DNA of 25,132 nt. Source: Saccoglossus kowalevskii. Lineage: Eukaryota; Hemichordata; Enteropneusta; Harrimaniidae. The notes under the pieces were generated by a model that saw only the letters and a program-made list of their open reading frames with translations, ran no database searches and was not told where the DNA came from. The position numbers were made by a program, and so were the translations under genes. Location: contig NW_003108580.1 of NCBI RefSeq assembly GCF_000003605.2, forward strand, positions 671,327 through 696,458, written 5' to 3'. Of this stretch, positions 1,273 through 25,132 are shown piece after piece. Position 1 is the stretch's first letter. The number at the start of each line of letters is the position of its first letter.

Positions 1273-2575
1273 GTGAAGTTATAATATCAACTCTTTTTCT
1301 CTTCTGCGACCTTTTTGTGCTGCTAGCACACATGATGATAACAATAATAACCACGACAACAATTATTAACACACCAATCAGTATTCCAACCATTATACTG
1401 GACCTTCAAATATAAATATTAAGCATATTGAGTTAATTTTGCCATATTTAATGTTATTTTTTTGTTCGTAAGAGAACGCGTATTTTGTCCAGTATTTGTG
1501 TTCATTTCAGCTTGTTTTGACAAGCACAAATAAAGTAATTTACAATATACAAGTGGCTTTAACAAATAAAATCACAATTTATATAGTCAAGTGAACTTTA
1601 ACCCCTCCAAATATTAAATAAGCTACTGATTTGACATGTCCAGCAGACACTATCAAAAGTACGCACCAAAAGCTTTCAAAAGATAACGTCTTGTTGGTGC
1701 CAGTATGTTGCACGGCTCATTTACAAGTGACAGCGACACCAAGCCATATCTTATGTTTGCCATACTTACATTGGCGATGGCAATATCACGTCGTCATCTT
1801 GGAATTTGGCAGTTAGCCAAGTAATGTAATCACAACAATATTTATAATTATAAGTACCACAGCAGTATTTATCATCGTCCCAATCATCCTGAATAATGCT
1901 GGGACAGTCAAAGCCATTCTTTTGGTTTCCCAAGATATCAACGTAACCAGTACAGCGGTCGTTTTTTGCCTCTGTTGAATAGACAATTGTACGAGTAAAT
2001 AGTTCATTTATGAATTTAAAGTGAAACTGTAGATCACGTGGGGTCCCTGAAAGTATATTATGATGGCGTAATAACAAACCGCACTATTCGTAAATAGATT
2101 CGAAATTATAGCCAAACAGTGTGACCAACCTCGTAAACATGTTTAAAAAGCTACATGCAATTTTGGCGAATTTGACTCGTGCATGAATTAACCAAATTTT
2201 GATTTAGATAAAGTGTCAACAATCTCATTGTGAGAATATACTTTATTTTAAATTAGTGACATCTTGAATTAGCGAAATTACAGATTAGCTAAATTAACAT
2301 GTTTTACAGTATACTGTCCTTATTTAGACTGTAAAATTGTAAATTTAAAAATTAGGAGATATCTACCCACTAGGTATTTATTCAGTAACTACTACAATAA
2401 AGCAGCATCAAGCGAATGATTATATTAGGGAGTAGCTGACCTATTCATTGCAATCTACTACTGTAACGGGTTAAATATATTCGCTCTGAGCGAAGTTGGA
2501 CCTAAATTCGATGTATGACTTACCTTTTACGACAACTAAGATGCAGACCATCGCCACAAACAATATATTAGTCAT
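1273..2575 (-). CDS. Shisa-like (STMC6) single-pass membrane protein 1, 3'-partial
   Basis: Three exons are recognised on the minus strand: 2524-2575, 1770-1971 and 1273-1397, joined by GT-AG introns of 552 and 372 bp with phases 1 and 2. The last exon ends in a phase-1 donor. Exon 1 gives a signal peptide (MTNILFVAMVCILVVVK; an in-frame upstream Met exists but adds charged residues). Exon 2 gives the ectodomain with C-x15-C-P-x12-CCG-x6-CC, including NGFDCP, KYCCGT and KYCCDY. Exon 3 gives a strongly hydrophobic helix (GILIGVLIIVVVVIIVIIM) followed by a basic stop-transfer segment (KRSQKRKRV). The 126 codons seen are normal for the family without the tail. The tail exon must lie left of the window or in unrecognised sequence. 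The role is inferred from the family: a membrane adaptor at the cell surface or in endomembranes. The ligand is unknown. Confidence 0.8.
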
Positions 2576-3865
2576 CTTTTGGACTTGACTGTGTCGTTGC
2601 CTCCGAAGAGAGACCACCAAAACAACAGTTTTTCTACGCACAAAATACGCCAATCAACATCTGTGTCACGACATGTAATTGGCTAACAACTTGCATTCAC
2701 GTGCGTATAGACCAATTACTGGAACTGTATTCACACCGCTGCAAACCCACCTGGTTTACAAAGGAACATTTTATGTTGGTATCCAATGTCGCTTGAGAAT
2801 ACTTAACCATAAAAATAACCGTCAATAAAATCACCTTAATGAGTGCATATATTGGACAAACTGAGAAAGACGTGATCAAAGTTGCTATCAGTCCGAGACA
2901 CTTGAATCATTCGTTCCCGTTATGTAGAATGATATGCCAAACATAAATACAATCCAGATTGTTCTATTTTATCTATGGGTAAGTATGTATTTTAATTTAC
3001 CGAAATGTACTGAAGTTGACCCAGGTTTCAAACCTTTTTTATGCTTAAACCGATCGGGCAATTGTTAGGTCATATTTAATATATTTTACTTCTTATAGAC
3101 ATGATGTACATTTAAAAAAAATGTGGGATGAACATCAGATTATATAATGGTGAATGAGTTGCCCCACCTCTTCCAAAATGGAGCTGTCTAGAATATTTGT
3201 ATTGATTATAGCTGGTCGGAATTTATAGGCGGTCACCGTGACTGTAAGTGTGAATTATTTAACGAACAGCCGTTATTTGGTTTAAATTGTTTTTATTTTG
3301 TACAAAAATGTAAATGAGTCAGCGTGTAACAGTAATTATATGGTTACATGAATACAAATGTATAAATAAGTTCGTTAAATATGCAAAATAGTCCGCGTTT
3401 TATTTACGCTTAAAGCAGAGATATATATTTCATAGTCTAGTATTTTGACGAACCAGCATATTTGTGTGAAATTGAGCACATCGCAACAATGCAAGAAGAA
3501 ACGCCGCAATGTTTTTATGCAAGTCCATTTATATTCCCCCCCTGTCCATTATATTCACTACAGTGGAACCGGGCGGCATTGTGTCTAGTTATCATATTCC
3601 AGTAGCCTTTGCAACTAATAATAGTTATATTAATGATGAAATTACCATGTCAAAACGACAGAAGGCTGAACAACGTCAATCAATTAATTCGGTTCAAGTG
3701 AAAATAATACTGTAAATGTGCTGATTATTGCGTCACACCTTGAATAATAAGCTTTTATATTGATGAAATATCGAAGCAGTATAAAAGGGGTTCATGTCCA
3801 TACTTAATTTACAATGTTTAGACAAGTGCATCGACACAGCGTGAACACTATACCCCGGATGTGGA
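2576..3865. other. Intergenic spacer between Shisa-like genes 1 and 2
   Basis: AT-rich sequence that holds the promoter side of gene 1 and the 3' flank of gene 2. No supported coding exon is seen. A minus ORF at 2697-2879 has a hydrophobic N terminus, but no splice donor or cysteine pattern ties it to the family. No canonical AATAAA signal was seen on the minus strand close to the gene 2 stop. Confidence 0.4.
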
Positions 3866-5669
3866 CTAAACAATACGCATTGGTCTGGTTGTATATGGCG
3901 GAGGTAATTGCGCATGGAAAAAGTCGGTTTGTAGTTGTTCTTCTTGCTGTTGCCTTTCATGTTGTTGTTGTTGTTGTTGTTGCAATGGCGGTGGTGACGG
4001 CAATGGCGCAGTTGGTGGAATCGGTGACGTATGTTGCTGATGTTGTTGTTGCTGTGGCGACGGGGATATATGTTTCTCTTGTTGCTGTTCACACATTGGT
4101 GAACTTAAAGTTGACACATGCAGTTGTCGGTAAGGAGATCCTTGTAGCTGTTCCATCGTGATGTTGGCCGTACAACCAGATGCTGGTGAGGCTTCATGTT
4201 CTAGGGAAAAAACATCACGAACGTGAAATGATGGCTAGAATGTAACTAACGAACGAAACAGTTGTTTACAGTTGCATTGTGGTCATCAGAAATTAACATC
4301 TATTGTGATAATAAATTAAATGAATTTTCAAAGAATTCAAAATCGTTATGAAATAACAGGCTTGTCCCAAGATGTTTTGAAACGAATCGTAGAGGATGTA
4401 GAAACAATATTCTATTTTTTTTACTTACGGATAATTGCAGACGTGTCGGACGAGGATGAAGAACAGCAGATCCCGGTGTAGATAAGGACACCCGCAATTG
4501 TAATAGTAATGACAACGATGAATCCAAAAACACCACATATTATACCAATTATAACTCCAACGCTATACAATATAAAACATACAAAAAATTACAGACTGTA
4601 ATAAAATAGATTATAATAGTATGTAATTCATCATTAAACATTGGAGTAATTAGAATACATACTCAACAACCCCTTCTTCTTCCTCTGTAGAACCATGGAA
4701 GCCATTAAACATGTGCGTGGAAGTTATGTTATCAGCGATATTGTTCCCCGTCAGACCGTTGCCATAGATCCCCTGTGTCGCTTTATTGCTTGTATCTTGT
4801 TCACGTTGATGGTCATCGTAATCACAGCAGTACCGAGTATATGTTTGTCCGCAACAATACATATAATTGGGAGAGTTGTACTCTAGAGGACAAAAGAAAC
4901 CACTCCGCCATACTCCCGCGTTGTCAAGGAAACCAGGACAGTAATACGCATGTACTATGTGAAAAAAACATGGTATGTAGTTGATATATCTCATCGTTAT
5001 ATACATACTACACAATCCGATACTAGTATTCTCAAAACACTCGTATAGCGTATTTCTTCTTCTAATGTGTCACATTTTGCTGGCGTTCGGTCCCCGAATC
5101 TATAATGTCGTCAAATAGTTTTGTGATTTGAAACTTGTACTTTAATTATAATTAAGCTTACGGTGTAACTGAGCTGTGAGTACCATTGTACACATCAACC
5201 GTACCGTACCGGATAGAGAAGCTCACGCAAACAAACAAAACAATACATCACCGTGGATAGAATACACCTCATTAGATTTGCGACGTTTGACCTCATTTCA
5301 ACTCCATATATTTGAGGTAAATTGTGACTCTTCCCGCCCCGCACATTTCGCCATATTTTACAGACATGCCATGTACTATTAACAATTTTGAGGGGATCAT
5401 GTATGGGATTAATTGCCATGATCAATCCCCGAAATAACTACAATCCACACTAGTAAAGCCGATAGTTCCATACACGCATGTTAAGCGTCAGTCTTGTCGT
5501 TACTAATAGACCACAATCATCGGCCTCCGCCATTGTTGGTATTTTTTATGTGATCAACCTAAAGTCTCAGATCGGAAGAAAAATAAAAACACGTTGTTTA
5601 CTTACCCGTCACAGCAAAAAATAATAGTATGCAAACGATCGACATGTTGCCTGAAACCTCAGTGGCCAT
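3866..5669 (-). CDS. Shisa-like (STMC6) single-pass membrane protein 2, complete
   Basis: Four minus-strand exons: 5606-5669, 4663-4954, 4439 or lower bound 4429-4562 (the donor fixes 4429), and 3866-4200. Intron phases are 1, 2 and 1, and the total is 825 nt for 274 aa. The N terminus is a signal peptide (MATEVSGNMSIVCILLFFAV); Met-9 is an alternative start. The ectodomain has C-x15-C-x11-CC-x7-CC (SGFFCP, MYCCGQ, RYCCDY), then an acidic linker with an N-I-T glycosylation sequon and an EEEEG run. The membrane helix VIIGIICGVFGFIVVITIT is followed by CCSSSSSD. The tail exon has a poly-Gln-rich segment, proline clusters, and LPPPY just before the C terminus RPMRIV. LPPPY is a PPxY ligand for WW domains such as those of NEDD4-type ligases. 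PPxY tails are known in the Shisa/WBP1/VOPP1 group, and an adaptor role is inferred. Confidence 0.87.
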
Positions 5670-5700
5670 TTTGGGAAAATGCGTTACAGCACTGGCAGCT

Positions 5701-5710
5701 TATTTATATA
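5701..5710 (-). promoter_or_regulatory. Possible TATA box of Shisa-like gene 2
   Basis: On the minus strand the sequence reads TATATAAATA, about 32-41 bases upstream of the first ATG at 5669. If used, transcription would start only a few bases before the ATG, giving a very short leader and perhaps favouring Met-9. AT-rich DNA makes chance matches common, so this is weak. Confidence 0.3.
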
Positions 5711-6660
5711 TACATGTATTACTCTCACTTCTATACATTCACCGACCATTGGACAATCAGCATCACGTGACATATGTCACCTGGACTTCCTTCTTGTTTT
5801 ATTCGCTCTAAATCACCTGCATTTATGGCAAGGTTCGTTTTATTCAAAAGAACAAGACTGATTGTGTACCGATACTAGTAATTATCAAATACGTGAAGTA
5901 CATTAAAATACGGAAACAAATTCGCGATGAATGTTTTTATGTTTGTGTTTTACTCGCCAACGTATGGCAGGGAGAAGAATGCGCCAGTCTCTTCCATTCA
6001 ATTCAGGCTTTGGTGGAGACGATTTATAACCTTTCCCAGCATGCACTTATTCCCCAGGGAAAAATAAGTGACAGATAGTGTTTAAATTTAAGTATACATT
6101 TTATTTAACGGCTTGGGTTGACATACATTTGATGTACAGGCTCTGGATTTCAACACCAGCACAGAAGTACGAAACGAGCTGATAGACAGACGTATTTATT
6201 GTCAGGAAAACAAACGAGTAATATCAATCTTAATTTTAAAACCCATTTAAAAAGACATATATTAAGTAAAACATTTCAATGACACATTTGATGTTACCAT
6301 GACGATGTGTTAAACTTACAACTGTAATAATACACAACTAACTGTAGATTTGAATTATTTGACATTCAGTCGTGTAGCTGTGCGTTCGTGTTCGTGTGAA
6401 CCCTTTCCATCCACACGTGTATTATTGTAGTTTTGCCTGGATATCGCCCTCTCGTGGCAATATAAGTCAACCCTTGAAATCATCCCCAACTGGCGACATT
6501 GAAGATATGAGTTAGCTACACATCCATATCATGCAGAATGGAGCAAGATTGACGATTATAGAACTCTTAACTGTAATTATAGCGGTGCTCCCCTGCGAGA
6601 CAGGAGAGGGCGCCAAAACTCACATACTGCTAATTAATTTGCATATATGACATATTCTAA
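5711..6660. other. Intergenic spacer upstream of gene 2
   Basis: No gene is seen. It contains several short random ORFs with no motif, low-complexity AT stretches and no recognised repeat. It should include the 5' regulatory region of gene 2. Confidence 0.35.
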
Positions 6661-6829
6661 CATACACACCGAAATAGAACATGTCCTATATGCAATACAA
6701 ACTCATTAGAAGACGAGGAGCATTTTCTTATCAGATGCAAACAATAAAAATAAAGGCTGGATTTATTTAATGAGCCAAGTATGCAAAATTATCAGACAAA
6801 ATGATTATCTTACCAACAAACTAAAATAA
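6661..6829 (+). mobile_element. Relic of a LINE-type reverse transcriptase C terminus
   Basis: The plus strand first encodes HTHRNRTCPIC, then EDEEHFLIRCK, then a stop at 6745-6747. With a +1 shift near 6742 the reading continues NKNKGWIYLMSQVCK up to a stop at 6829. The CPxC...EDExHFLxxC zinc-knuckle-like motif followed by a (F/W)IYLMS segment is typical of the C-terminal end of endonuclease-reverse transcriptase proteins of invertebrate non-LTR retroelements. An in-frame stop immediately upstream and the frameshift show that it is dead. No polymerase core is present. The function is lost. Identification rests on motif recognition only. Confidence 0.55.
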
Positions 6830-6996
6830 TAAGCTAATCAGAGAAATCTGTAAATTGATAACTGATATCATATACGAAAATGTGTCAATTCTTATTCTGT
6901 TGAGATTTTCCTTTATCTTTCTGTCGTTCTGTATTGTCATGTAATCAAAATCCCACTGAGGATACGAGTTCAATTAACAATATATTATTACGTGTG

Positions 6997-7273
6997 CTGT
7001 ACAATATATATATACCTTATACTGTACAATATACCTTATACTGTACAATATACCTTATACTGTACAATATACCTTATACTGTACAATATACCTTATAATG
7101 TACAATATACCTTATACTGTACAATATACATTATACTGTACAATATACCTTATAATGTACAATATACCTTATACTGTACAATATACCTTATACTGTACAA
7201 TATACCTTATAATGTACAATATACCTTATACTGTACAATATACCTTATAATGTACAATATATCTTATAATGCA
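6997..7273. repeat. 19-bp minisatellite (ACCTTATACTGTACAATAT)
   Basis: About 14 tandem copies of a 19-bp unit, with CTGTAC and ATGTAC variants interspersed. Because three units equal 57 bases, all frames repeat every 19 codons, which produces an artefactual long plus ORF. The unit contains the palindrome TGTACA. Confidence 0.95.
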
Positions 7274-8318
7274 CCTGAAATTTCACTCATGATTCATCGA
7301 CTCAAATCCAGACCTCTAAAAACCTGGTACTTTTATTGGGGGTATTATTAGAATCGCATTCTAATTTGCGGGTGACTCTGATAATACGCAGTTGCTAAGA
7401 TACTCACTATGCAATGCAGGCCCACAAAACATATCTCTCTGTGTGATCTCGCGAGAATCCAACAATCATGAGAATACGCTGCGAGAACAAAGAGTTAGAT
7501 GATTTTGCTTCATGGTTTTAGATCACGGGCAGTGCTATACATATTTATAGAAAATACCAAATGTTGATATGTTCCGAAAAGTAACGCCTCTGGCATCTTG
7601 TCATTTGATCTACCAGGAATTCAATGTCAGTTACCATGTACTCGTGTTTGTGGTCTCATATTGGCCAATATCCGAACGAACACTACTCAGTCGGACATTA
7701 TGGTATACATACTACACAAGCGTTAATAAAGATCACAAATACAAACATTGGAATAGACATAAAACAGATTTACAAGAACAGAATGAGATTTTGTAAGTAA
7801 TAAAAATAATAAAATGCAACTGATAAGTATCTTAGATTACCTGACGACATGAACAGTATCACTACATTGAAACACTAAACAACTTGTCTATGAAATAGTA
7901 AATACAACAACGTCATGAAGCCTTGTGTACGAAAGAGGTATGAACACACACAGAACTGCCAAAAGTCTCGTAATATATCGGACCATATCATTTACATGAA
8001 TTATTCATAGGAAATAAAAATATTTCATGCTATACAATCAAATATAACGTTCATAATCCACATCTCTGTAAAGTTCCACGATACCGCAGACATTGGTAGT
8101 TCTCATTCAGGGACTATATTGTGTTATGTCAACAAGAAAGTTCAAATGCAAGCAGAGCTAGTAATGTTAATATGAAAATATGGTCAAGAACACGGCATAT
8201 CGATAAATGAAATAAAAAATCAGCGTTTTCAGCAACTTATTATATATATACATATATATATAGGCCAGTCATTAAACGACATAATTTCATTCATTAATAT
8301 AGAAAACAGTCTTTTACT
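7274..8318. other. Intergenic spacer, including the 3' flank of gene 3
   Basis: No gene is seen. A plus ORF at 7569-7796 lacks recognisable motifs. The part nearest 8318 probably belongs to the 3' UTR of the minus-strand gene that ends at 8411. A short TATATA microsatellite lies near 8240-8262. Confidence 0.35.
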
Positions 8319-8390
8319 ACATCAAATCCGCCTCCCGAGAGGAGGGTTGTCACCACATCAACCCTGCCTCCCAGGGGAAGGATTGTCACT
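8319..8390. repeat. Two 36-bp direct repeats just beyond the gene 3 stop
   Basis: Copies 8319-8354 and 8355-8390 share ACATCAA, CCTCCC and GG(A/G)TTGTCAC. Each carries a small GC-rich stem (CCTCC-cgaga-GGAGG in the first copy). They lie 21-92 bases past the stop codon, within the likely 3' UTR. Any role in the transcript is unknown. Confidence 0.7.
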
Positions 8391-8410
8391 GCAGCAATAT
8401 GACAGCTTAT

Positions 8411-12370
<3,960 letters not shown>

Positions 12371-12468
12371 CTTGTATGTTTGACCTCAATTGTATTGTGA
12401 GAGTTATTATTATTCAGTACGTGTATTGAACGTGCAATTTCAAAAGCGTTTTCTATACAAATGACGTA

Positions 12469-12476
12469 TGACGTCA
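12469..12476. promoter_or_regulatory. CRE-like palindrome TGACGTCA upstream of gene 3
   Basis: A perfect TGACGTCA lies about 100 bases upstream of the first ATG (12370), with a second half site TGACGTA just beside it (12462). This is the consensus for CREB/ATF-type bZIP factors. The location fits a proximal promoter, but use is not shown. Confidence 0.35.
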
Positions 12477-14384
12477 ATCTACCTGTCTACGCATGCCCAC
12501 AATCGACAAAGACAGACGACCATAGCAAGTCATTGTCGTATAATGAAGGGTATTCAGATACGGGTTTCAATTACCGTCATTTAATAAGCACTGAAAAAAA
12601 CATTCCACTTACAATCTACAACACATTCTACGTAGGTAAAGGGAGCGTTATGCTTATTTACATCAACATTCTTGGTATCCACGGAAAGTCTTTCATGTTT
12701 TCATGTATTTAAATGGCCTTTACGGAACAGTTTCGAGTCGCACCCAGTTCGGCCAAGTTTAAAATGACCGCATTCATGTTAATTGACAATATAAGGTTAT
12801 TCGATCATCTTTATATGAAAATTTGTGTACCGAAAACTCTGTATAATGTTGTGTACGACGAAGAACCAGTAAACATGTTGACACTCATATTCAAATAAAT
12901 ATAAATAGATTTATTTATTATATATTTGGAGAAAAAACAACATTTTTTCGATGCAGTTGGCGTAATATTTTTATTTTGTCTTTTTTATATTGAAAATGCT
13001 TTCTCACTCAATATTAGTGTCGTGTTGTCTTTAGTTGTCAAAATCAGGTTCTTCAAATATGTAATTCATACACAATAAATTTTGAAACTGTTTTTTTGTT
13101 TATATGATATATTTACACTGAATTAGGATTGAGTATACTTCACCCTGCCCCAGTCTAAGCCTAATATGAGCTTGTTTAGTCTTAGTTTAACATTCACGTT
13201 ATCATATCTCCGTGTACCAACTGTTTTTAATAATCTAGCATAAAATATTTAAAGAAATGTCGGCGGTATTATTAGCAACGATTTTTGTTCTTTTGCATAC
13301 AGATTGTTAATTTCTAAAGTTAATCACCACATTCTAAGGCAAACAAGCTAATGTTTATTTTTTTATTTTGAGAAGATACGTACAAAGACATTGTCATTGT
13401 GCGTTTTCCATTTGGGATACTGAAGACGTGAACTTGATCAGATTGATTTCATTAAGCAACAACAACAACAACAAAAATAAAATATATTTATACTTTAAAA
13501 ATTTTTTTTAATGAAATTTATATATAAATTACACATCTCCTCACATCATTAACAAATACGACTCTACTTTGCCGCGCCCTTTTTGGTTTTGTGTTTGCTA
13601 CGGCGATGGGAAAGTAATTCAACAGAAGTCTTTGTGATTTACCCAATAGAATAAAATAGAATAGAATACAATAAAGTAGAATATAATACAATATACTACA
13701 ATAGAGTAGAATCTGATATATACGGAATATAGCATTTGCGATCAATTGCATAAAAAGACAAAAATACTAGACACAAAATTAAGAAGGAAAGATAAAACTC
13801 TCTTTTGAGAACACATTTTTGTTAGGGGTTCAGACCACTTTATAGGTCCGATGGTGGGTATGACATTTTAATGACTAAAATATGTTTTATAGATTCAAGT
13901 TAATTATTTCATCTCTAATGTGCTGCGCTGGAAAAGATGCACAGTGAGGGAGGGTCACGTGACGTCCACTGCTAAAGCACCAAACTGTAAGTAGAACCTT
14001 GAAGCTTGTGTTTTAGCTCCATCGTGGGAAGATGACACAATTTACCAATGATTGATGATCAGCAGGATCAACTTTGTTTACACTACAGGGCGTAATACAC
14101 ACCCCGTACAATGCATTTGTGTTCAGTCAAAACGTTGAGACAACAATGTCATTGCATTCAGCCATTGGGTTGGGCGATAAAGGTAAACGAACTATCAAGG
14201 TACTGCAGTACTCAGAATTACCTAAGTTATATATACCTTGGTATATGTTTCTGGCCGAATGTTCTCGAGGACGAGAAGAACCTGTTCGAGTATTTAGCCC
14301 GGGGTACTTAGTTACTTTACGTAGAATTTTCTCTTCAAATCAAACACTGAAATCAACGCGGTTAGGCGAAAATTAACGATGAAC
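12477..14384. other. Intergenic spacer between genes 3 and 4, left part
   Basis: No supported gene. It contains short CAACAA runs near 13458-13475, an (AGAAT)-type low-complexity tract at about 13646-13713, and an isolated TCACGTGA E-box palindrome near 13955. A 100-aa plus ORF at 14074-14376 shows no recognisable domain and was not accepted. Confidence 0.4.
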
Positions 14385-14431
14385 TCACACTCTGTCTATG
14401 ATACAAGTGCCAACGGTACGTACACTCAAAC

Positions 14432-14673
14432 ACACAGGTGTCCCATGAATTGTGGAGCCACCATTGGATTAACTTTTAATATCGTTGAATTAACTTTTAA
14501 TATAGTTGCGATATGAACTCGATTAAAACGCGTTCCTATATAGGGTTGCGTTTTAATTGGAGTTTAATTAAACTCAATTACAATGCAATACAATGGAGAA
14601 TTGCACTTTAATTAAGTTTAATTAAACTAGAGTTGAAGATCCCGTCGCTGAACATAGAAATGTTTGCGAAGCT
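14432..14673. repeat. 240-bp dispersed repeat, copy 1
   Basis: Starts ACACACAGGTGTCCCATGAA and GTGGAGCCACCATTG; contains TATATAGGGTTGC and the palindrome-rich GGAGTTTAATTAAACTC and AAGTTTAATTAAACT, ending CTGAACATAGAAATGT then TTGCGAAGCT at the gap edge. The second copy is at about 15110-15353. Confidence 0.85.
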
Positions 14674-14723
14674 NNNNNNNNNNNNNNNNNNNNNNNNNNN
14701 NNNNNNNNNNNNNNNNNNNNNNN
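14674..14723. other. Assembly gap (50 N)
   Basis: Fifty undetermined bases between repeat copies. The round size suggests a placeholder of unknown true length. The flanking repeats probably caused the break. Confidence 0.99.
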
Positions 14724-14764
14724 TGATACTTACGTACAAAGTTTTATTGAAATATGATGATTAG

Positions 14765-15100
14765 TACTTGAGATATCAGTGGAAAAGCCAAAAATTGAAT
14801 AATCATTATGCAAATTAGGTAATTAATATTGCACAGATTTTTACCCAAAAATAATCAAATCTGTGCATGAGTTCAGAGCATATATTTGTCAAGTTTCATC
14901 AAAATCCAATGAGTGGTTCTTTAGATATCAGTGAAGTCATGGAACAGCTAAAAATCAGCTAATTATCATGCAAATTAGGTAATTAATATGCATGGATTTT
15001 TACCAAAAACTAGTAATCAAATCTGCGCATTGGCTCAGAGCATCTATGCACCAAGTTTCATCAAAAACCAATGTAGGGTTTTTGAGATAGCAGTGGAACA
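14765..15100. repeat. Two-copy tandem of about 152-162 bp
   Basis: AGATATCAGTGGAA-like text recurs at about 14771, 14923 and 15085. Within each unit are CATGCAAATTAGGTAATTAATAT, TTTTTACC, AATCAAATCTG(T/C)GCAT and AAGTTTCATCAAAA. No coding potential. Confidence 0.8.
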
Positions 15101-15109
15101 GATGGACAC

Positions 15110-15353
15110 ACACATACAGGTGTCCCATGAATTGTGGAGCCACCATTGATATTAACTTTTAATATAGTATGTTTAATTAACTTTTAATATATTTGCGATA
15201 TGAACTCGATTAATAGCGTTTCTATATAGGGTTGCATTTTAATTGGAGTTTAATTAAACTCAATTACAATGTAATACAATGGAGAATTGCACTTTAATTA
15301 AGTTTAATTAAACTACCTAGAGTTGAATATCCTGTGACTGAACATAGAAATGT
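15110..15353. repeat. 240-bp dispersed repeat, copy 2
   Basis: Same order as the copy at 14432-14673: CAGGTGTCCCATGAATTGTG, TTAACTTTTAATATA, TATATAGGGTTGCATTTTAA, GGAGTTTAATTAAACTC, CTGAACATAGAAATGT. Same orientation. After the final block it is interrupted by a small hairpin insertion before GCTTCGCAAAC, while copy 1 reads TTTGCGAAGC at that place. Confidence 0.85.
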
Positions 15354-15417
15354 ATCGGGGTAAGGTATGTTACAATTATATTAATATTAATATAAACTGA
15401 ACGATACCTTCCCCGAT
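15354..15417. repeat. Short foldback insertion
   Basis: ATCGGGGTAAGGTAT (15354-15368) pairs with ATACCTTCCCCGAT (15404-15417) with one unpaired base, around an AT-rich centre. It sits at the end of the second 240-bp repeat copy. Confidence 0.7.
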
Positions 15418-15483
15418 ACTAAACCTAAGCTTCGCAAACCTGACTTAAATTCGATTAAATATTACTATAAATTATGAAACATT

Positions 15484-15509
15484 GTGGAGCCCCATGTTTG
15501 GGGCTCCAC
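15484..15509. repeat. Perfect 11-bp GC-rich hairpin
   Basis: GTGGAGCCCCA and TGGGGCTCCAC pair perfectly around a TGTT loop. The left arm shares GTGGAGCC with the start of the 240-bp repeats, so it may be a transposable-element end structure. Confidence 0.75.
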
Positions 15510-15616
15510 TTGTACAAAGTGCTCCACTTCTACGTCTATAATTACAAGTGGCAACGGTACGTACACCCTCACACACTCTATAATACAAGTGGCAACGGTA
15601 CGTACACTCACACACT

Positions 15617-16092
15617 ACAGCACAGTTTTTCATGAAAAATAATAAAAGATATATATTCTTTAATATGTGAATTCAAACCATATACAAAAACTATTTTACA
15701 CAACCACATGTAAATCTTTTTATAATTAATGTATGCTAAACAAGCAATGATTGTCATTGTAGAATATGAAATCCTTTCTTCAAACATGACATCGGTGATC
15801 AAGAGACATTGACACGTCGTTATTCTCGGATGTACGCGGAATTACTGGATTCCAGGTTAGGTTACATGGCGTCATGGCTAAATAAAGTAAATGTGGCCAC
15901 CGTAACGTCAACATTTTGAAAATCGGATCATGCTATTGACTTGACAATAATCAATCATTTTTTAAAAATCGAACGTACAATCATCCGTGCGTTAAAAGTG
16001 AGCTGCCAATTGTATGTGATTAAAAAAAGATATACTAGAAACTAAAGAAGAGTTGGACGGAATCGCTACGTGGTTCAACCCCGTTCATCCGA
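15617..16092. other. 3' flank of gene 4
   Basis: AT-rich, no exon recognised. It includes the likely 3' UTR of the minus-strand gene that stops at 16093. The minus ORF at 15608-15802 has no family features. Confidence 0.35.
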
Positions 16093-17924
16093 TCACACCG
16101 GGGAGGTCTCAGTTGCCGGAGGTTGTTGATATGCCGGTTGAGCTGGCGGTGGTTGTTGATATGTTGGGGGCGGCGCCTCGCTATACACAGGAGTTGGTTG
16201 AACTGCGTTTCCTTCTGCAACGTACAAAAAGAATAATTTTAATAATTACGTTATTTTTGATAAATTCAACATTATTTGTTCGATAAAAAAAACAAGAATT
16301 AATATGAACACACAAAGTCTTGAACTTACGGACGACGGTTGTAGTAGTGGCACTTTTGCTGCCTGCAGATGCAGCTGCTCCAACACAACAGCAACAACAT
16401 ATTACAATGCACACAATAATGAGAACAATGAGTCCAATTACACCACAGACGATACCAATGATAATACTAGTACTATAATAAAACAACGTAAATTGGTCAG
16501 TAAATGCACGATATACTTTCATACATACTTATATAGAAATATATTCACTAAAAAAATAAATATCAGTTTATAAAACATTTTCTCGCCCATTGGCTATTAT
16601 GATACGTATACAGGTGAATATAACAACCCGAAGTGTCAAGTTTGCGAGAATCTACTTTGAAGTAAGTCAAATTGTGGCATTCAAGCTCAGTTCAAAACGC
16701 TAATGCAATTCAACACGACAGTACAACAATGCTGATCATTCCACATGTCAGATCTTTTACCTTCGCATAAAGAAACACACAAAAGTAATGTGAACACTAA
16801 TAAGTAAATACTCACGCTAATCCTGCCGCTTCCTCCAAATCGTCCCCCCAATCGACCCAATCCTGGGCATCATAAGAAGCCTGGTCACAGCAATAGTAGT
16901 ACGTAGTACCAGTGTTGCAACAGTAAGTTAATGTTAGGGTATTACACTCCTGCGCAGGCTGAGTTGTTCCCCAGGCGTCGACATAAGAATCACAAGATCC
17001 GCCATATGCTCCTAAAATTTAAAAATACAATCATAAGTTAATATGCGCTGGTGTATGGAGACTGTGAAAGATATGAGAATTACAATTTCATTTTGATGGT
17101 CATGTTACGGCTCAGAATAATAAGCAGCTTACGGCGTGACCTTGAATCTTCGGTTACCGCAACGACCTTCGTTTGGGGAATCCTTACCTATCATCACGCG
17201 TAAATTTATATATGAGATGTATCAAGTTGCCATAGCAACGGTAAAATATCTATTTTTATTGAGTCCACCACTCGTAAAATAATTGGTGGCCACTTTTTTT
17301 CAGTGCCAAAGATTTGTATATAGTAAAACATCGTCGAGAAAAAGTGAGGAATTTCATGACACGGATTGGTTAAATGGTATGACCACAATTGCCAGCGACT
17401 AATAAACGTACACGATGCAAGCATAGATAGGGAGAAAGGCTTTATAGTTAACTATATGAGATTAAGATTATTAACTGAATCTAACTGACAGGCAATCACT
17501 CATATTTCTTACACATAGAATGATTAATAAGCGTTACTAATATACGCTACATTTCCAGCGTTGGACTTGTACTATGTTTAGCGTAGGCTGCGACCATGTG
17601 TCTCAGTGGTACGTCGTTACAGACTATATTTTACAACATCCAACCATCGCGGTAACCGACCCATGAAAAATAATTTATATAAATAACTGATAGTTGAGAC
17701 TGGTATCTGAAATATAGTACTTTCTCATTTACAGTATATTTGTTTTTGTTTTTTCGTAATCCCACCTAGCAACGGCACAACTTTACACACACATACCTAA
17801 TACGGTGAGAGCTATTTTTAAGGTGATATTTAATTTAGAGGATAAAACCCAAAGAATACTTGCCTCCAATATAGATGAGCATAAGACAGCATAAACTGGA
17901 ACCTAGCATCTTAGCAGCACTCAT
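16093..17924 (-). CDS. Shisa-like (STMC6) single-pass membrane protein 4, complete
   Basis: Minus-strand exons: 17864-17924, 16816-17011, 16330-16472 and 16093-16214; phases 1, 2 and 1; 522 nt for 173 aa. The first intron starts with GC rather than GT. The signal peptide is MSAAKMLGSSLCCLMLIYIGG. The compact ectodomain has C-x15-C-x7-CC-x8-CC (GGSCDSY, LTYCCNTGTTYYYCC), then a Trp/Asp/Glu-rich linker. The helix TSIIIGIVCGVIGLIVLIIV leads to CIVICCCCCVG, a five-Cys juxtamembrane run that could be palmitoylated (inference), then SATTTTVV. The tail holds APPPTYQQ (a PPTY WW ligand) and ends ETSPV, matching a class I PDZ ligand (S-x-V). The closest relative in the window is the gene at 21859-24329. 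Role inferred from the family. Confidence 0.87.
17858..17863 (-). other. Non-canonical GC splice donor of gene 4 intron 1
   Basis: The minus strand reads GGAG|GCAAGT at the end of the signal-peptide exon. This position and phase match the GT donors of the other genes. No nearby GT donor keeps phase 1. GC-AG introns are a known minor class and usually keep an otherwise strong consensus, as here (AG|GCAAGT). Confidence 0.65.
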
Positions 17925-18300
17925 TTTACCTGTTGCGCCTTGTGTACCTTGCGTAGGTCTGTCAACAAACCTGAGCTCGGTGAAACCCCCAAGGTGAAAA
18001 ACCCAAAGTGAAAACGAGGTTTAGCCATTGTTTTCTTTCAATACCAGTCACAATACTCCTCTCGTTCCTACTGGGCAATCACAACCAAACAAATAGTCGT
18101 TTCCATGCAAGAGTTATAGTCATGCGCATAGCCCCTAAATTTTTTCATGTAAAATTGTTCCTATATACTCTCTTGTTAGTCTTGCATATTTTATGTTCAT
18201 GTAGCTTACATTCTCCTCTTTAAAACCAGGTTACTTGTTCTTATTGAGGTTTTATGAATGTACATGAAACACTTCCACTTAGATTTGGTTGGTTTACGTT
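17925..18300. other. Upstream region of gene 4
   Basis: No coding sequence supported. Presumed promoter side of gene 4. It shows a small internal duplication (AAACCCCCAAGGTGAAAA / AACCCAAAGTGAAAAC) near 17983-18015. No clear TATA box. Confidence 0.35.
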
Positions 18301-18309
18301 CATTTTTCA

Positions 18310-18464
18310 AGCTAGGACGAAGCGGCATTGGCGACGAAACAGCCTGGGACGAAATGACATTAGAACGAAACTTCGTTGAGACGACAGATCATTGGGACGA
18401 ATCACCATTGGCACGAGATAGCGCTGGGACAAAACGGCATTGGGACGAAACAGCGTTGGGTTGA
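18310..18464. repeat. Degenerate GGGACGAAACRGCATT array
   Basis: About nine diverged copies of a 16-17-bp unit built on (T/G)GGGACGAAAC(G/A)GC(A/G)TT. It creates a spurious plus ORF rich in W-D-E-T. Its composition differs from the AT-rich surroundings. Confidence 0.8.
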
Positions 18465-18479
18465 CACCGAATCTTTCTA

Positions 18480-19217
18480 ATCAATATAAATGTATTAGAC
18501 GAATACGATTCGATCTACTTTGTTAAGCTATAGACAGATACGAGACATTACACAGAGTATGACATTATTAGTATGCTAGACCAACAGGCGATGAATGTGC
18601 GACAGAATACCCGGTGTGATTGGTAACTTGCGACAATGCTGATGCGAAGTTATCCGCTGTATCTCCTGAGACCAAGGCGTAGCTCGCAGATGAAAAGATG
18701 AGCAAGCGGATACCATTGAGGTGGTTGCGAATAGATATCGTGCATGTGAATGAGTGACCGAGAAATTTAGTGTAGCAAACAGTAGTTTGTGTTGTAGCTA
18801 GAACTGGCTGAATGCAAAAGAAACGCCAGAAAAGGAGGATTTCAGAAGCAAAGGATGAGCGAAGTGAGCAAGAAGCAAACCAAAACAGTAAGCGGAGCTG
18901 ACCTACCTGCAGCAGTGAAAAAGAAAAATACCACGAATAAGAAAGAATGAGTGAACTGGAACACATCCTTAGATACATATTTTCTTAAATGCCGAAATGT
19001 GGATGGACAGCTCAGAGATTGAATTCGAAGCGTGTTTGTAGTACTGAGTCACTTAAGTGTAATAATGTGTAATTGTAATAGTTTAATTCATTAAATTCAA
19101 GTTTAAGTATATTTTTTCCTCATTTGTAGTTCATTTTTTTAATTTTCGTTTATTGTCATATATCGATTTTTATCCATTCCAATGGATGTTAAGTGATTAA
19201 ATATTATTATTATTATA
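18480..19217 (+). other. Possible 3' end of a decayed retroelement or pseudogene
   Basis: This block is less AT-rich than its flanks. On the plus strand it has an open stretch at about 18797-18950 that starts after an acceptor-like TTGTGTTGTAG and reads LELAECKRNARKGGFQKQ, then a Lys-rich end before TGA. The block ends in a short ATTATTATTATTAT tract (about 19200-19218), as many non-LTR element 3' tails do. Other plus and minus frames are broken. No family is recognised. It could also be a last exon of an unrelated gene. Confidence 0.25.
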
Positions 19218-19218
19218 G

Positions 19219-21858
19219 CATTATTATAGAGATTATTTGTATGCGGAGACATTGCCAATTATGGGACAATTGTTTGAGTGCAACAAAGACTACAAGTAGT
19301 TCCAAAGCATTAACCCATGTTGGTAATGTGACACCCCACAGCGTGAGAGGCTTGCATCTGTATAGACAACAGTGTCTTGCGTGACCTTGATTGTGTGTGT
19401 ACGAACGAAACACCTTTATAGTCCAGTAGAAAGGTCCTTAGCCATAAGAGGTCTTTAAGAATATCTGAATGTTCAAAACGTGCAGAACACACAGAAATAA
19501 ACAATTAGCCCAGACGAAAAAAAATTATGACAACAGACCAATGTGTTTCTGTTTTTCTGCGTGAGAACAAGTTGACCTATTCACCCAGTTAGATAGCTCT
19601 TGATGAATTTGTGAGTCTCAACTTTAGTTTATTTTTTTCTCATGATCAAAGGCCGTAGATGTTCTCGCGTTGATTGTAATGTCGGAAATGGCATGCCGAA
19701 ATGGATATAGCCGGGTCTTAAAAACAGCCCAGATTTAATCCGTACATAGCATCATTTCTTAGCTGTGCGTGAACGCTACTAATAGGGGAAATAGGGAAAC
19801 TACTTCCATATACTCTCATTACACAATCAACCCCTAAATAAATAAAGGTAATTGTTTTTGAGAACTGAATAACCGTGGTGACTACAACTATAAACCATTT
19901 ACCACATACTATATTCGTTTTATTTCATTTCTGCTGACTATGGTGCAGTTACCCGGAGAAAACATTTACTACATTTAGGAGAAAACATTCAGGAGAAAAC
20001 ATACTGCACAAACAATTCATACATGAAAACTTACACCAGAAAAATGTAAACGGAACCCGTAAACATATTATGAAAGGAAATAATTCAATCTGCTGGGAAA
20101 AATTATCTCGGATCACTAATTTTATTAAACGTTAATACACGAAAGCACTACCAACTAGTCGTACTCAGTTCCATACATGACGGCATTCAATATATATACT
20201 ATTGTTGTGATTTTCGTTAGTGAGTTTATGCGTATGTATGCAACATTTTTAATCACTTCCTCGGCGAGGAGTTTTAAGCGTTTTTAAAATAAAACTAAAC
20301 AGTACAACAATCATTCCAAAACACTTCTTGACAGCTTTACACAATTGGAGACTGAAACCATCCAATAATACAGACAGAATGAAATACTGAGTACTCAATA
20401 TTGTCATAATTTGTAAATTGATTGTATAAGTATTAGTCACCTTCATACGTCATAGCACACCACATTTTGAGGTGTATAATTCTCAAATAAACGTGGGCAT
20501 GTAGGATAGTTGAGTTGGACCTAACTCGATGTTCACGCAATGCTAACTACACCAAAACTCTATTCACAATACGTTGCGTTGTTTGGGCTGTAAAGTGTCA
20601 TCAAACGAATTTTGTCTCAAAGTATATCAAAACCAAATATTCACACAATTTATCAAAATACGTCCATTCACTAATAAACTGTCAACTTTTCAATACACAA
20701 AACAAACGGAAACAAATAATAAATAACGAACTTATTTGCTAGATTATGCGTTCTAAAACAGGGGTGATCGACGTATAATCTGAGTTTATTATCCGATTTA
20801 AGACACTGCGTGATTGGTTAAGGAAGAAATATTTGCAACATTTTGTCAAAATTCCCCAACGACAACTTCAGAGTCTAATTCAGAAAATCATTGTTGTCTG
20901 TGTGCCAATGCAACCGTTATTCTCCACTCCAATCTTTAAGAGCACATAATAAAACATTTTTTATTATTTTAACAACTATCTACAAACTACACGCCTTCTT
21001 GAATAAAGACGTTTTTCAATGAATTTTAAATAAAGAAAAGTTAGAACTGTTTGTAACATTATTTGGCAACTCTATCCAAAAACGCAGTGCACAGAAAGCA
21101 ATGTCTCCACATGTAGTTAATCTCGATCTAGGAATAACCAGTCTGAAAATGACATAAATTCAACTCTATATCTACCAGGAAATCTCATCAAATATTGCGT
21201 AATACGGTCATACTTCCTGCAATGTGTAGTCTGGCTGCAAAATTGTGTACTTTTTGAAGTTTTGACTTTTGTGAATTTGTTATACCATAACGTTACATGA
21301 TATAACCGGGCAATAAAAAATAATTTCAATAATTTATTTGGACAAATATTTCCTGATCTCAGACCCTGAGCAGTCATGAAATGACAATATTCGCTAAAAT
21401 GGTTAATCATAATAACAATCATACGAAATTCAAAATTAAAAAGTGAATTTAAATTCAATACAGAGTCTATGATACAAGCGGTAACGTGTCAATAACAAAG
21501 CCTTTACGGAATCGCAAAATTGAATATTCAAAATGTCTCTATTCTAAACAACGTAAACTATTAAAATTTTGAACAGATTCTATACTTATAGAATGAACTG
21601 CGGTAATATGTATCATCTGCTCAATTGGATATCATATCTCACAACTATAAACTTATTTTTAGTCATCTGAGTGCAAACTAAATGAAGGATTATTTGAACA
21701 ATTACTGGCAATTTGTCCAAACAAGCAATGATTCTTATTGATAAATACGGTTTGGCCGTAACATATTATCATCTGCTGGACTATGTCTATATGTACGGAC
21801 TATATCATATTACATTGAATGTAATACACCTTGAACAGAAATGCAACGTGGTTCAACC
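19219..21858. other. Long spacer between genes 4 and 5
   Basis: No supported gene in 2.6 kb. Visible structure: a 12-bp AGGAGAAAACAT motif repeated near 19955-20000, a diverged boundary motif TATGATACAAGCGGTAACG near 21468, and a pair of related segments (CGGTAATATGTATCATCTGCT near 21601 and CCGTAACATATTATCATCTGCT near 21756). The ORFs present are short and lack motifs. Confidence 0.4.
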
Positions 21859-24329
21859 CTAAACTGGGGAGGTCTCGATTGCTGGGGATTGTTCATATGC
21901 CGGTTGAGGTGATGGTGGTTGTTGATATGTTGGGGGTGTAGCGTTGCTATACACAGGAGTTGGTTGAACTGCATTTCCGTCTGCAAAGTACAAAAAGAAC
22001 ATTGTTTTGAATAATTACGATATTACATTATTACATACAGGAATTATTATGAACACACAAAGTCTTAGACTTACGGACGACGGTTGTAGTAGTGGCACTT
22101 TTTCTGCCTGCAGATGCAGCTGCTCCAACACAGCAACAACGCCATATTACAACGCACACAATAATAAGAACAGTCAGTCCAATGACACCAAAGACGATAC
22201 CAATGATACTACCGGTACTGTAACACAACAACACACATTGTCAGTAAATGATTCACATGTCTCCTTATTGCTCTACACTCACTGGACAGTATTGCTCTCT
22301 GTATACAACACGTTTAGGAAATGCACTTCCTTATCCTAATAGCTACGTAGTTTTAGCTCTCTGTTCTATACGAAAAGACAATGGTTAGTCACCGACACAG
22401 TCACTTTAGAAGATCGCCATCAATAAATGACAGTCACATGTACCTAAATATAATTACACCCATTCCACTATTGTGTATGTATAGAAATAAATAATTACTC
22501 GACATAAAATTCGCAACTCAGAATTAAACATGAATCATATAAACATTAATTGGAAACAAATGTATAGCTTTATGATAAAAATGACAACAGACACTAAAAC
22601 AAGGGAATTCCAAGTTTTAAATTCTTCACAATATTTTATACAAAAATCTTTTATGAGTGTCGTTATACAATATCATACTGGAATGACTTGTTATTTTGTT
22701 AGGGGCATCCAAGCAAGCTCTCTATGGTTATTTCTGATCCAGAGGAATCACTGCTAGTGAACTTCATTTGTTTGATGGTAAGGAAACATGTATACATCAA
22801 TGATGGATGGTGGAAAGCCAAATTTAATGTTTTTTGTTTTATCTTTTATTTAAATCAATTTATCAGTGTAAAAATATCAATACAGGAAACAATAACAAGT
22901 AGGAACTGTACTTTAAAAAAATGGGTTCCTATAATAACATATGTGTGATAAATCTTTGTATTTAACATGGCAACTACGGGTTTGTACTTTCAGGTTTTGT
23001 TTAATTTCTGTACGATAAACTTTATACAGAACATGTAATTTCCCAGATAATCTGTAATGTACTTATCAGAAATTATCGAAATTTACCCAATAAAACTTCT
23101 CTAAAAACAAAAAAGTACAACTAGAAATCAAGACACATGGTGAATTAAGTACCTCGTGGCCTGACGGATTTTGATAATCCGCATTTAATGAACGGTAGTA
23201 GTATTTCCAATCACATCTGAGCACTTTCATATGTAATTTAAACAATTTTCAGAAGACTGTTTTGAAACACTTCAGAAAGCAAAGTCATCGACGATGTTTC
23301 AACCCAAACCACCAGACTATAAGTGTTTTGCAAAGTGTTAATATATAAGGCACATTTGTGTTCATAAAAGTAACTAAAATACTTTTCTTCTAAATTGTTT
23401 TATCTTGAAGTACTTCCTAAAAAAACAAACAAACAAACAAACATACAATGTATCAAGGTAAAACACCCAACTATGCATGTTTTATAAGTGTTTATGTATA
23501 GGACATGTAAAAAGTTCATAAGAGTAACCAAAACACTTTTCTTCCAAACTGTTATATTTTGAAGCAATTCTAAACACACATATAACATTTCAATGTTCGA
23601 GTTAGTAAGCTGGATGACGCAGCGCTAAACTGGCGTTAATTCCATGTGATCTAATCATTATATCCATTTACTTTACAGCACAGCTCTTATTCTATTGGTG
23701 GAGCCTTAGTGTCTCTGTTACAAGCACTTGTCAATATTCAGTCTGTGTTTTGCGGAAAGTACTTTTCAAAATGTTGCGATGATAAACACATATTTCAATA
23801 CATATTTCTGGTGGGAACTCTTTTCAAAATGTGTGTCTAGTGAAATCACTTTTCAAAGACTTGTGATAGTAAACACCTCATTAAAACATGTCTTCGGTTG
23901 AGACACTTTTCTACGTGTCGTGGGGACAAAAATGTGTCATATTTTAAAACACCTAGATTTACAGTGTAGAGTTAGTCAATCGAGGTGACTGGTTTCGCAT
24001 ATCGTAGTCTAGAGTTAATAACTCGAAGTGAGTGGTTTCGTAACCTAGAGTTAATAACTCGAAGTTAGTGTTTTCGCGTATTGTTTTAGGAGTGTTTTTA
24101 GGAGTTTTTCCACATTATGAACACCTATTATGAATTAAATTTACTTACGCTAAACCTGTATCAGCTTCAAGACTGGTGCCCTGGGCATCATAAGTTGCTT
24201 GTGAACAGCAATAGTAGAATGTGGTACCAGTGTTACAGCAGTATGTTAAAGTTTCGATATTGCAATCAAATCCAGCCACAGTATTTCCAAAGCCATCCGT
24301 ATAAGAGCTACATGACCCGCCATATGCTC
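21859..24329 (-). CDS. Shisa-like (STMC6) single-pass membrane protein 5, 5'-partial
   Basis: Three minus-strand exons: 24149-24329 (phase-1 acceptor), 22075-22217 and 21859-21980. The last two match the lengths of the equivalent exons of gene 4 exactly (143 and 122 nt). The ectodomain has C-x15-C-x7-CC-x8-CC (GGSCSSY, AGFDC, LTYCCNTGTTFYYCC). The helix is GSIIGIVFGVIGLTVLIIVC, followed by WRCCCVG instead of the five-Cys run of gene 4. The tail has PPTYQQPP (PPTY WW ligand) and ends ETSPV. The signal-peptide exon was not found before the right edge. The 147 whole codons seen equal the mature part of gene 4 apart from a shorter linker. A recent duplicate of gene 4; role inferred from the family. 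Confidence 0.82.
23320..23585. repeat. Diverged direct repeat in the first visible intron of gene 5
   Basis: GTTCATAAAAGTAACTAAAATACTTTTCTTCTAAATTGTTTTAT (from about 23359) recurs with changes from about 23514, roughly 155 bp later. Related AACACTTTTC motifs continue to about 23945, suggesting an old degenerate array. An (AAAC)n tract lies near 23423-23442. Confidence 0.65.
23966..24076. repeat. Three short tandem copies (about 33-42 bp)
   Basis: (C/G)TAGAGTTA, then AACTCGAAGT or CAATCGAGGT, then GAGTGGTTTCG recur at about 23966, 24010 and 24043, about 70 bases from the ectodomain-exon donor of gene 5. Confidence 0.8.
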
Positions 24330-24972
24330 CTGAAAATACAAACAAAATATAAGTTGGTATTTGAGGATGTTGAGATATGCTAGAATTATAATTCTATTAT
24401 GATTAAATCATGTCTTGTATCGTTTCAGACTACTAATACTGCAAATTATCAACGCGACATTATTTTTCATATAATATGTACCACGTTTGTTTATGTGATT
24501 ACGATTAACAGCCGCACAAATTAACGCTATTATTATGGGATGTTCACAAAGAAAGATCAACGGTGCACAATATTATAGGCATACTCTAGGCACTCTAGGC
24601 TATGCACTGTTTCTCGTGTTTGGGTGAAATATCCCTAGAAATGCAGAAAATGCCCAAGAAAAACACGCATCCCCATACTAGAAAAAGGTATAAAATGTCT
24701 GGCAAAATTCAGGTTAAATATATTACTTTACTTTAGTTAATTATGTATTTATACTCGCCGAGTACGAGCATTGGCAGACACCAATAGCGACGTAACTCAC
24801 ACAAATCATACAAATTCAGTGATTTGCGATCAAAGGTTTGATAAACACATGATAGAAATTCCAGAATGTAAACGAATATTATACAAGTAATTGATATGTT
24901 CGGCAATATTCGACTGAGCTTGAAATAATGGGACGAAAAAAAGTGCAAGGGTGACACGCATTTGACCTATGT
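24330..24972. other. Presumed first intron of gene 5
   Basis: The minus strand was searched for a signal-peptide exon ending in a phase-1 donor. None is convincing. The ORF at 24733-24957 ends near MLVLG and a GC-type donor but is not a signal peptide. The equivalent intron of gene 4 is 852 bp, so the exon may lie just past the right edge. Confidence 0.4.
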
Positions 24973-25132
24973 AAGCCAGACTAACCTTTATAAGATAAGT
25001 AGTCTGAGCTCTAAGATAAGCCAGACTAACCTTTATAAGATAAGTAGTCTGAGCTCTAAGATAAGTCAGACTTACCTTTATAAGTAGTCTGAGCTCTAAG
25101 ATAAGCCAGACTTACCTTTATAAGATAAGTAG
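24973..25132. repeat. 45-bp minisatellite, truncated by the window edge
   Basis: Units start AAGCCAGACT at 24973, 25018, 25063 (AAGTCAGACT) and 25103. The third unit is 5 bp shorter. Each holds AGTCTG and CAGACT as a short inverted repeat. On the minus strand the last two copies read AAAGGTAAGTCTG, a full match to the 5' splice-site consensus. Confidence 0.93.

Follow-up and report, generated by a model that had tools for sequence, protein, structure and literature searches.

We report that a stretch of 25,132 nucleotides (nt) from the hemichordate Saccoglossus kowalevskii (NCBI RefSeq assembly GCF_000003605.2, contig NW_003108580.1, positions 671,327 to 696,458 of the forward strand; hereafter the window, in which position 1 is the first letter) carries five intron-containing genes, here named g1 to g5, which are all on the minus strand and are predicted to encode Shisa-like membrane proteins. 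The genes follow a common plan where a signal exon is followed by an exon for a six-Cys ectodomain, a membrane exon and a tail exon. This gene number, strand and exon order had been proposed from the letters of the DNA (referred to as the original prediction) and are borne out by open, in-phase exons, with the tail exon of g1 and the signal exon of g5 not being found in the window. Moreover, the interval that had been given for the cluster, 1273 to 24329, runs exactly from the donor end of g1 exon 3 to the first base of g5 exon 2 and is correct to the base at both ends. The exons are listed below, where Shisa_N is the Pfam model PF13908 (cut-off 22 bits) scored on stop-to-stop open reading frames (ORFs) unless otherwise stated, 5m0w is the Shisa-3 ectodomain structure in PDB matched with single sequences, and "profile" denotes a match to the profile for that exon type.

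2524..2575, minus strand: g1 exon 1, signal exon (MTNILFVAMVCILVVVK..); ATG, hydrophobic core and strong donor AAG/gtaagt, phase 1; sole candidate in 2047-3400
1770..2046, minus strand: g1 exon 2, six-Cys ectodomain; Shisa_N 41.4 bits, 5m0w E 8.5e-6; phase 1 in, 2 out
1273..1397, minus strand: g1 exon 3, membrane exon, basic residues following the helix; donor in phase 1
5606..5669, minus strand: g2 exon 1, signal exon; sole donor found scanning 4955-7000, two in-frame ATGs possible
4663..4954, minus strand: g2 exon 2, six-Cys ectodomain; Shisa_N 39.7 bits, 5m0w E 4.7e-7
4429..4562, minus strand: g2 exon 3, membrane exon; in-phase joins, profile
3866..4200, minus strand: g2 exon 4, Gln/Pro-rich tail with PPPY, stop TAG; in-phase join, profile
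12313..12370, minus strand: g3 exon 1, candidate signal exon (MAAAKMVAMQLGCVVIFFL..), phase 1; best of several candidates scanning 9750-14000, in frame once joined
9491..9749, minus strand: g3 exon 2, six-Cys ectodomain; Shisa_N 29 bits, 5m0w E 3.6e-5
8950..9077, minus strand: g3 exon 3, membrane exon; in-phase joins, profile
8411..8598, minus strand: g3 exon 4, tail with LPAY, stop TAG; in-phase join, profile
17864..17924, minus strand: g4 exon 1, signal exon, phase 1; sole donor found scanning 17012-20500, two ATGs possible
16816..17011, minus strand: g4 exon 2, six-Cys ectodomain; Shisa_N 24.8 bits as ORF, unlisted at E up to 1 when spliced
16330..16472, minus strand: g4 exon 3, membrane exon with Cys run; in-phase joins, profile
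16093..16214, minus strand: g4 exon 4, tail with PPTY, C-terminus TSPV, stop TGA; in-phase join, profile
24149..24329, minus strand: g5 exon 2, six-Cys ectodomain; Shisa_N 24.2 bits as ORF and 21.9 spliced, 5m0w E 0.73
22075..22217, minus strand: g5 exon 3, membrane exon; in-phase joins, profile
21859..21980, minus strand: g5 exon 4, tail with PPTY, C-terminus TSPV, stop TAG; in-phase join, profile

The junction phases 1, 2 and 1 had been predicted to be identical wherever both sides are visible, and all 13 such junctions agree. Specifically, the exon 1/2 junction is in phase 1 in the four genes with both sides seen (g1 to g4), the exon 2/3 junction is in phase 2 in all five genes, and the exon 3/4 junction is in phase 1 in g2 to g5, the donor side in g1 likewise being in phase 1. 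All 13 introns end with AG and 12 of these start with GT, the other one, intron 1 of g4, having a GC donor (GAG/gcaagt; 17858-17863). The joined exons are open throughout in g1 to g5, and a stop codon ends each of the four genes with a tail exon (g2 to g5).

The signal exons were searched for as an ATG, a hydrophobic core and a phase-1 donor, and a hydrophobic ATG exon with an in-phase donor, i.e., a signal peptide candidate, was found in four of the five genes, that of g3 being a prediction 2.6 kb upstream of g3 exon 2. The signal exons of g3 and g4 both start M-x-A-A-K-M. For g3, a signal exon at around 9.9-10.0 kb was also considered and then rejected, as the scan gave no phase-1 donor there. 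For g5 the same scan gave no candidate in 24330-25132, which represents the 803 upstream bases inside the window, and for g1 the tail profile (six frames) identified no tail exon below 1273 in the window.

Two minisatellites touch these gene models. An array of approximately 24 tandem copies of a 71-bp unit occupies 10338-12060 and, with exon 1 placed at 12370-12313, the predicted intron 1 of g3 therefore contains it. The second, at 527-1276, consists of 92-bp units followed by 38-bp units, and it borders on and takes in the donor of g1 exon 3. The motif ACGTAAGKT is repeated within this array and is present eight times between 600 and 1274, all on the minus strand and with the g1 exon 3 donor counted, compared to 0.47 expected in the window, and hence the array carries splice-donor look-alikes. 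If the last visible intron of g1 were retained, the frame would continue for approximately 26 codons into the minisatellite before a stop (1193-1272), giving an alternative short tail.

To look for more copies inside the window, profiles for each exon type were run against the window in six frames, and none was found beyond the five genes. The five ectodomain, five membrane and four tail matches had E values of 2.1e-12 or better; since these very exons had served to build the profiles, the matches are strong by construction, and what the search does tell is that a sixth copy did not stand out. Thus, the next-best E values in the window vs the reversed window were 0.097 vs 0.12 (ectodomain), 0.41 vs 0.23 (membrane) and 1 vs 0.18 (tail), and no sixth copy or pseudogene copy in the window was clearly above the reversed-window level. 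The extra ectodomain match behind the first of these values (19894-20046, plus strand) was dropped, being barely better than the best match in the reversed window.

With respect to family, Shisa_N scored above its cut-off for all five genes as ORFs and for three of the five as spliced proteins (g1 40.5, g2 37.1 and g3 26.8 bits), while spliced g5 (21.9 bits) was 0.1 bit short; this is the outcome of the profile search that had been proposed as a check, with g4 and g5 being marginal. A profile of all five rows matched the Shisa-3 ectodomain structure 5m0w with an E value of 4.8e-11 and, among single sequences, g2, g1 and g3 matched it clearly and g5 only at E 0.73 (see the list). An alignment of the five proteins has 13 invariant columns, among them those of all six Cys of the ectodomain, of the Tyr that precedes each Cys pair, of two Gly in the membrane stretch and of a juxtamembrane Cys. 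The cysteine order C*C*CC*CC (as in PMC5578492) is kept in all five ectodomains and, as in the Shisa family, the ectodomain has Tyr before the Cys pairs and is followed by one long hydrophobic stretch (five of five, read from the sequence), a hydrophobic first exon is present in four of five and the tail is Pro-rich in all four genes where it is seen. In contrast to the family, g4 and g5 are without Pro after the second Cys, have eight residues between the Cys pairs rather than six or seven, and as spliced proteins sit at or under the Pfam cut-off. The number of aromatic residues in the membrane stretch, counted by eye, is zero in g1, g3 and g4, two in g5 and three in g2, which argues against the four-aromatic membrane motif of Shisa proteins (mentioned in the S1 legend of PMC5578492, where the exact motif is not specified).

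Every listed family other than Shisa_N was below its own cut-off, both for ectodomain ORFs and for spliced proteins. The original prediction had placed the genes more widely, in Shisa/CYYR1/WBP1-VOPP1 (STMC6), and of this the Shisa part stands. The CYYR1 model (PF10873, cut-off 31) gave sub-threshold scores for g1 (14.2 bits spliced and 10.5 bits for the membrane ORF), and the spliced proteins of g2 to g5 were not listed at E up to 1. Pfam contains a WBP1 model; no WBP1/VOPP1 model was among the matches at E up to 1, for ORFs or spliced proteins. The STMC6 adaptors CYYR1, WBP1, WBP1L and VOPP1 do resemble the present proteins in having a Cys-rich ectodomain, one membrane helix and a tail with [L/P]PxY, but three [L/P]PxY are reported for each of CYYR1 and WBP1L and here there is one per visible tail. 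On these sequence grounds we file g1 to g3 as Shisa family members, and because of the exon plan, the Cys pattern and the likeness to g3 (g3 is 35% identical to g4) we file g4 and g5 as divergent members.

Exon order, phases, strand and sequence are shared among the genes, and since they are shared our data support that at least five tandem-duplicated Shisa-like genes form a local cluster, in keeping with the repeated local duplication that had been suggested for the family. In a gene tree of the five, where g1 was entered without its first 37 residues, g4 plus g5 is the best supported fork (93/94, just under the tool's own bar). The remainder is weakly supported (61/57) with long branches for g1 and g2, and we therefore claim no order of duplication.

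The two most similar copies, g4 and g5, have diverged to different degrees in their two halves. Over exon 3, intron 3 and exon 4, 306 of 359 aligned bases are identical (85%), compared to 126 of 181 (70%) in exon 2. The high-identity block as delimited with blastn and alignment is:

16097..16506, minus strand: g4 copy, starting 34 nt upstream of exon 3 and ending just short of the stop; identity to 21863-22250 is 82%
21863..22250, minus strand: g5 copy

Intron 3 alone shows 75 identical bases of 94, compared to 41-59% for 20 shuffled controls of this intron. The flanks, i.e., 200 nt past the stop (87/188) and 200 nt deeper in intron 2 (90/181), are both within that shuffled range; short aligning stretches were seen beside the exons, covering approximately 34 nt upstream of exon 3, approximately 28 nt upstream of exon 2 and some bases past the stop. 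The numbers of synonymous (dS) and non-synonymous (dN) substitutions per site according to Nei and Gojobori (NG86) were, as dS/dN, 1.004/0.282 for the ectodomain exon, 0.181/0.081 for the membrane exon and 0.38/0.098 for the tail exon. Hence, all three exons have a dN below dS, which is what working genes would be expected to show. Counted as sites, the ectodomain differs from the rest with respect to both synonymous (22/39 vs 15/67, rounded; Fisher p 6e-4) and non-synonymous differences (32/138 vs 16/190; p 2e-4).

The low divergence extends to intron 3, which is non-coding, and the pattern would therefore be better explained if the two halves of g4 and g5 differed in age, as a result of gene conversion or unequal recombination, than by selection on the protein alone. 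An unusual constraint, such as splicing or RNA signals, acting on the membrane exon, intron 3 and the tail could also keep an intron similar, and the longest identical run (34 nt) lies across the donor of exon 3 and is weak as a sign of exchange (permutation p 0.04). We nevertheless regard such a constraint as an improbable cause, since the synonymous differences are unequal between the blocks, the outer non-coding sequence is no more alike than shuffled sequence and, in a self-BLAST of the window, where matches longer than 40 nt with E up to 1e-3 were kept, the g2 membrane exon matched that of g4 over only 48 nt (81%) and no g3 match was listed in the block.

The visible tails (g2 to g5) each carry one [L/P]PxY, which is PPPY in g2, LPAY in g3 and PPTY in g4 and g5, and the TSPV that forms the C-terminus of both g4 and g5 fits a class I PDZ ligand. 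If expressed, each gene would give a small type I membrane adaptor that starts with a signal peptide and exposes its six-Cys Shisa domain to the lumen or the cell exterior; this would be followed by a single membrane helix, which has a GxxxG pattern and a juxtamembrane Cys, and by a tail, Pro-rich as far as seen (four genes). By analogy with vertebrate relatives, a client receptor may be retained along the secretory or endosomal route by the ectodomain together with the membrane helix; the [L/P]PxY of the tail would recruit NEDD4-family ubiquitin ligases, and the C-terminus of g4 and g5 may bind PDZ proteins, such that the adaptor would set how much of the client remains at the surface. The copies would have arisen via repeated tandem duplication, and g4 and g5 would later have exchanged the membrane-tail half, through gene conversion or unequal recombination, with their ectodomains staying diverged. 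Shisa proteins have been reported to bind Frizzled and FGF receptors and block their arrival at the surface (PMC5578492). Moreover, WBP1L and CYYR1 are reported to bind NEDD4-family ligases via [L/P]PxY, and WBP1L to regulate CXCR4 and to be palmitoylated and glycosylated (PMC6991692, PMC11399591); the juxtamembrane Cys could likewise be palmitoylated. We thus favour, with a probability of roughly 0.6, that the cluster represents tandem-duplicated Shisa-like type I membrane adaptors tuning the level of client receptors, with the membrane-tail half exchanged between g4 and g5. Of the receptor-adaptor family in the original prediction, family and local duplication are supported, and the receptor-adaptor role is suggested by the vertebrate relatives.

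Several observations weigh against the adaptor reading. The Pfam support is marginal for g4 and g5, spliced g4 had no Shisa_N listing at E up to 1 (we suspect that HMMER composition filters acting on the Cys run and the Pro-rich tail are behind the loss), and g4 gave no match to 5m0w at E up to 10. Shuffled tails contain [L/P]PxY in 6.4% (g2), 14.1% (g3), 22.7% (g4) and 16.5% (g5) of cases, so no single tail motif is convincing; the joint chance for the motifs in g2, g3 and g4, as the product of these rates, is approximately 0.2% if they are independent. The g1 tail is unseen in the window, and g1 may therefore be without the recruiting part, and as for signal exons, g3 has a predicted one and g5 none that was found in the window. 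Furthermore, Shisa and CYYR genes are reported to be without PRRG4-like action on Robo in the fly (PMC5578492), and hence the layout alone does not confer every trafficking activity.

The same layout would also suit auxiliary subunits of ligand-gated channels, CKAMP-like and acting for example on nicotinic receptors, where gating and synaptic or ciliary placement rather than degradation would be the output. Vertebrate Shisa6-9 are described as AMPA receptor subunits (PMC7653359), Shisa6 and Shisa9 show C-terminal PDZ interactions, and g4 and g5 end with TSPV. In addition, mussel gill transcripts are reported to be enriched both in the Shisa Pfam domain and in terms for nicotinic receptors, whose trafficking, according to the authors, may be regulated by Shisa-like proteins (PMC5549309). 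However, the AMPA receptor Shisas have been proposed to be a vertebrate innovation, and eight invertebrate Shisa1/L1 sequences were placed on the Shisa5 branch (PMC7653359), and we consider channel subunits unlikely. That some copies are non-functional, i.e., g1 without a tail exon and g5 without a visible signal exon, we consider very unlikely: these two exons were not found in the window and the donor of g1 exon 3 lies at the edge of a minisatellite, but the place of each is towards an end of the window, every exon that is seen has an open frame and intact junctions, and for g4 and g5 dN is lower than dS.

Outside the gene models, a 240-250 nt element is present twice (14424-14663 and 15106-15353, 90% identical, with inverted arms) and probably represents a small transposable element. 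A 55-nt inverted repeat at 27-144 (93% complementary, 8 nt between the arms) resembles a small palindromic mobile element. With respect to other genes, 10 of the 102 ORFs in the window were scanned and no Pfam match was above a cut-off, and an Rfam scan of the window gave no family at its gathering score. The CpG observed/expected ratio is 0.97, which is no more than a hint that this is not vertebrate DNA depleted in CpG. For relatives on viral contigs, 236 pattern matches were obtained and none was confirmed.

Expansion of the Shisa family is already known. The reported numbers of Shisa genes are 16 for S. kowalevskii, between 6 and 8 for three species of Branchiostoma and 0 to 2 for the sampled protostomes (Table 1 of PMC7653359), and independent expansions in deuterostomes have been described (PMC7653359). 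Since Shisa expansions in invertebrate deuterostomes are published, the present cluster is a new instance of a known phenomenon, and the half-and-half divergence of g4 and g5 is the added finding. That work has in common with ours that there are multiple Shisa genes per genome but, in the text available, clusters, exon phases and conversion are not described and the word "tandem" does not occur in its main text. Likewise, the available text of a zebrafish Shisa paper (PMC10531659) has no occurrence of exon, tandem or invertebrate. Among the literature matches listed (titles and the starts of abstracts) none concerned a Shisa tandem cluster or conversion; the family review by Pei and Grishin (2012) may describe it.

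Vertebrate Shisa-like adaptors are reported to affect the surface level or function of Wnt, FGF and glutamate receptors (PMC5578492, PMC7653359), and little among the literature matches listed was functional work on invertebrate copies. It is conceivable, albeit quite unlikely, that the cluster encodes interchangeable adaptors, where recombination keeps the membrane-tail half uniform and the ectodomains diverge to fit different client receptors; if true, one degradation or anchoring output would serve many inputs, as in paired immune receptor clusters. With its intact array, fixed exon plan and recombination-like mosaic, the cluster is a place to ask how the Shisa family expands, and the same array lets one ask whether ectodomains and tails evolve separately.

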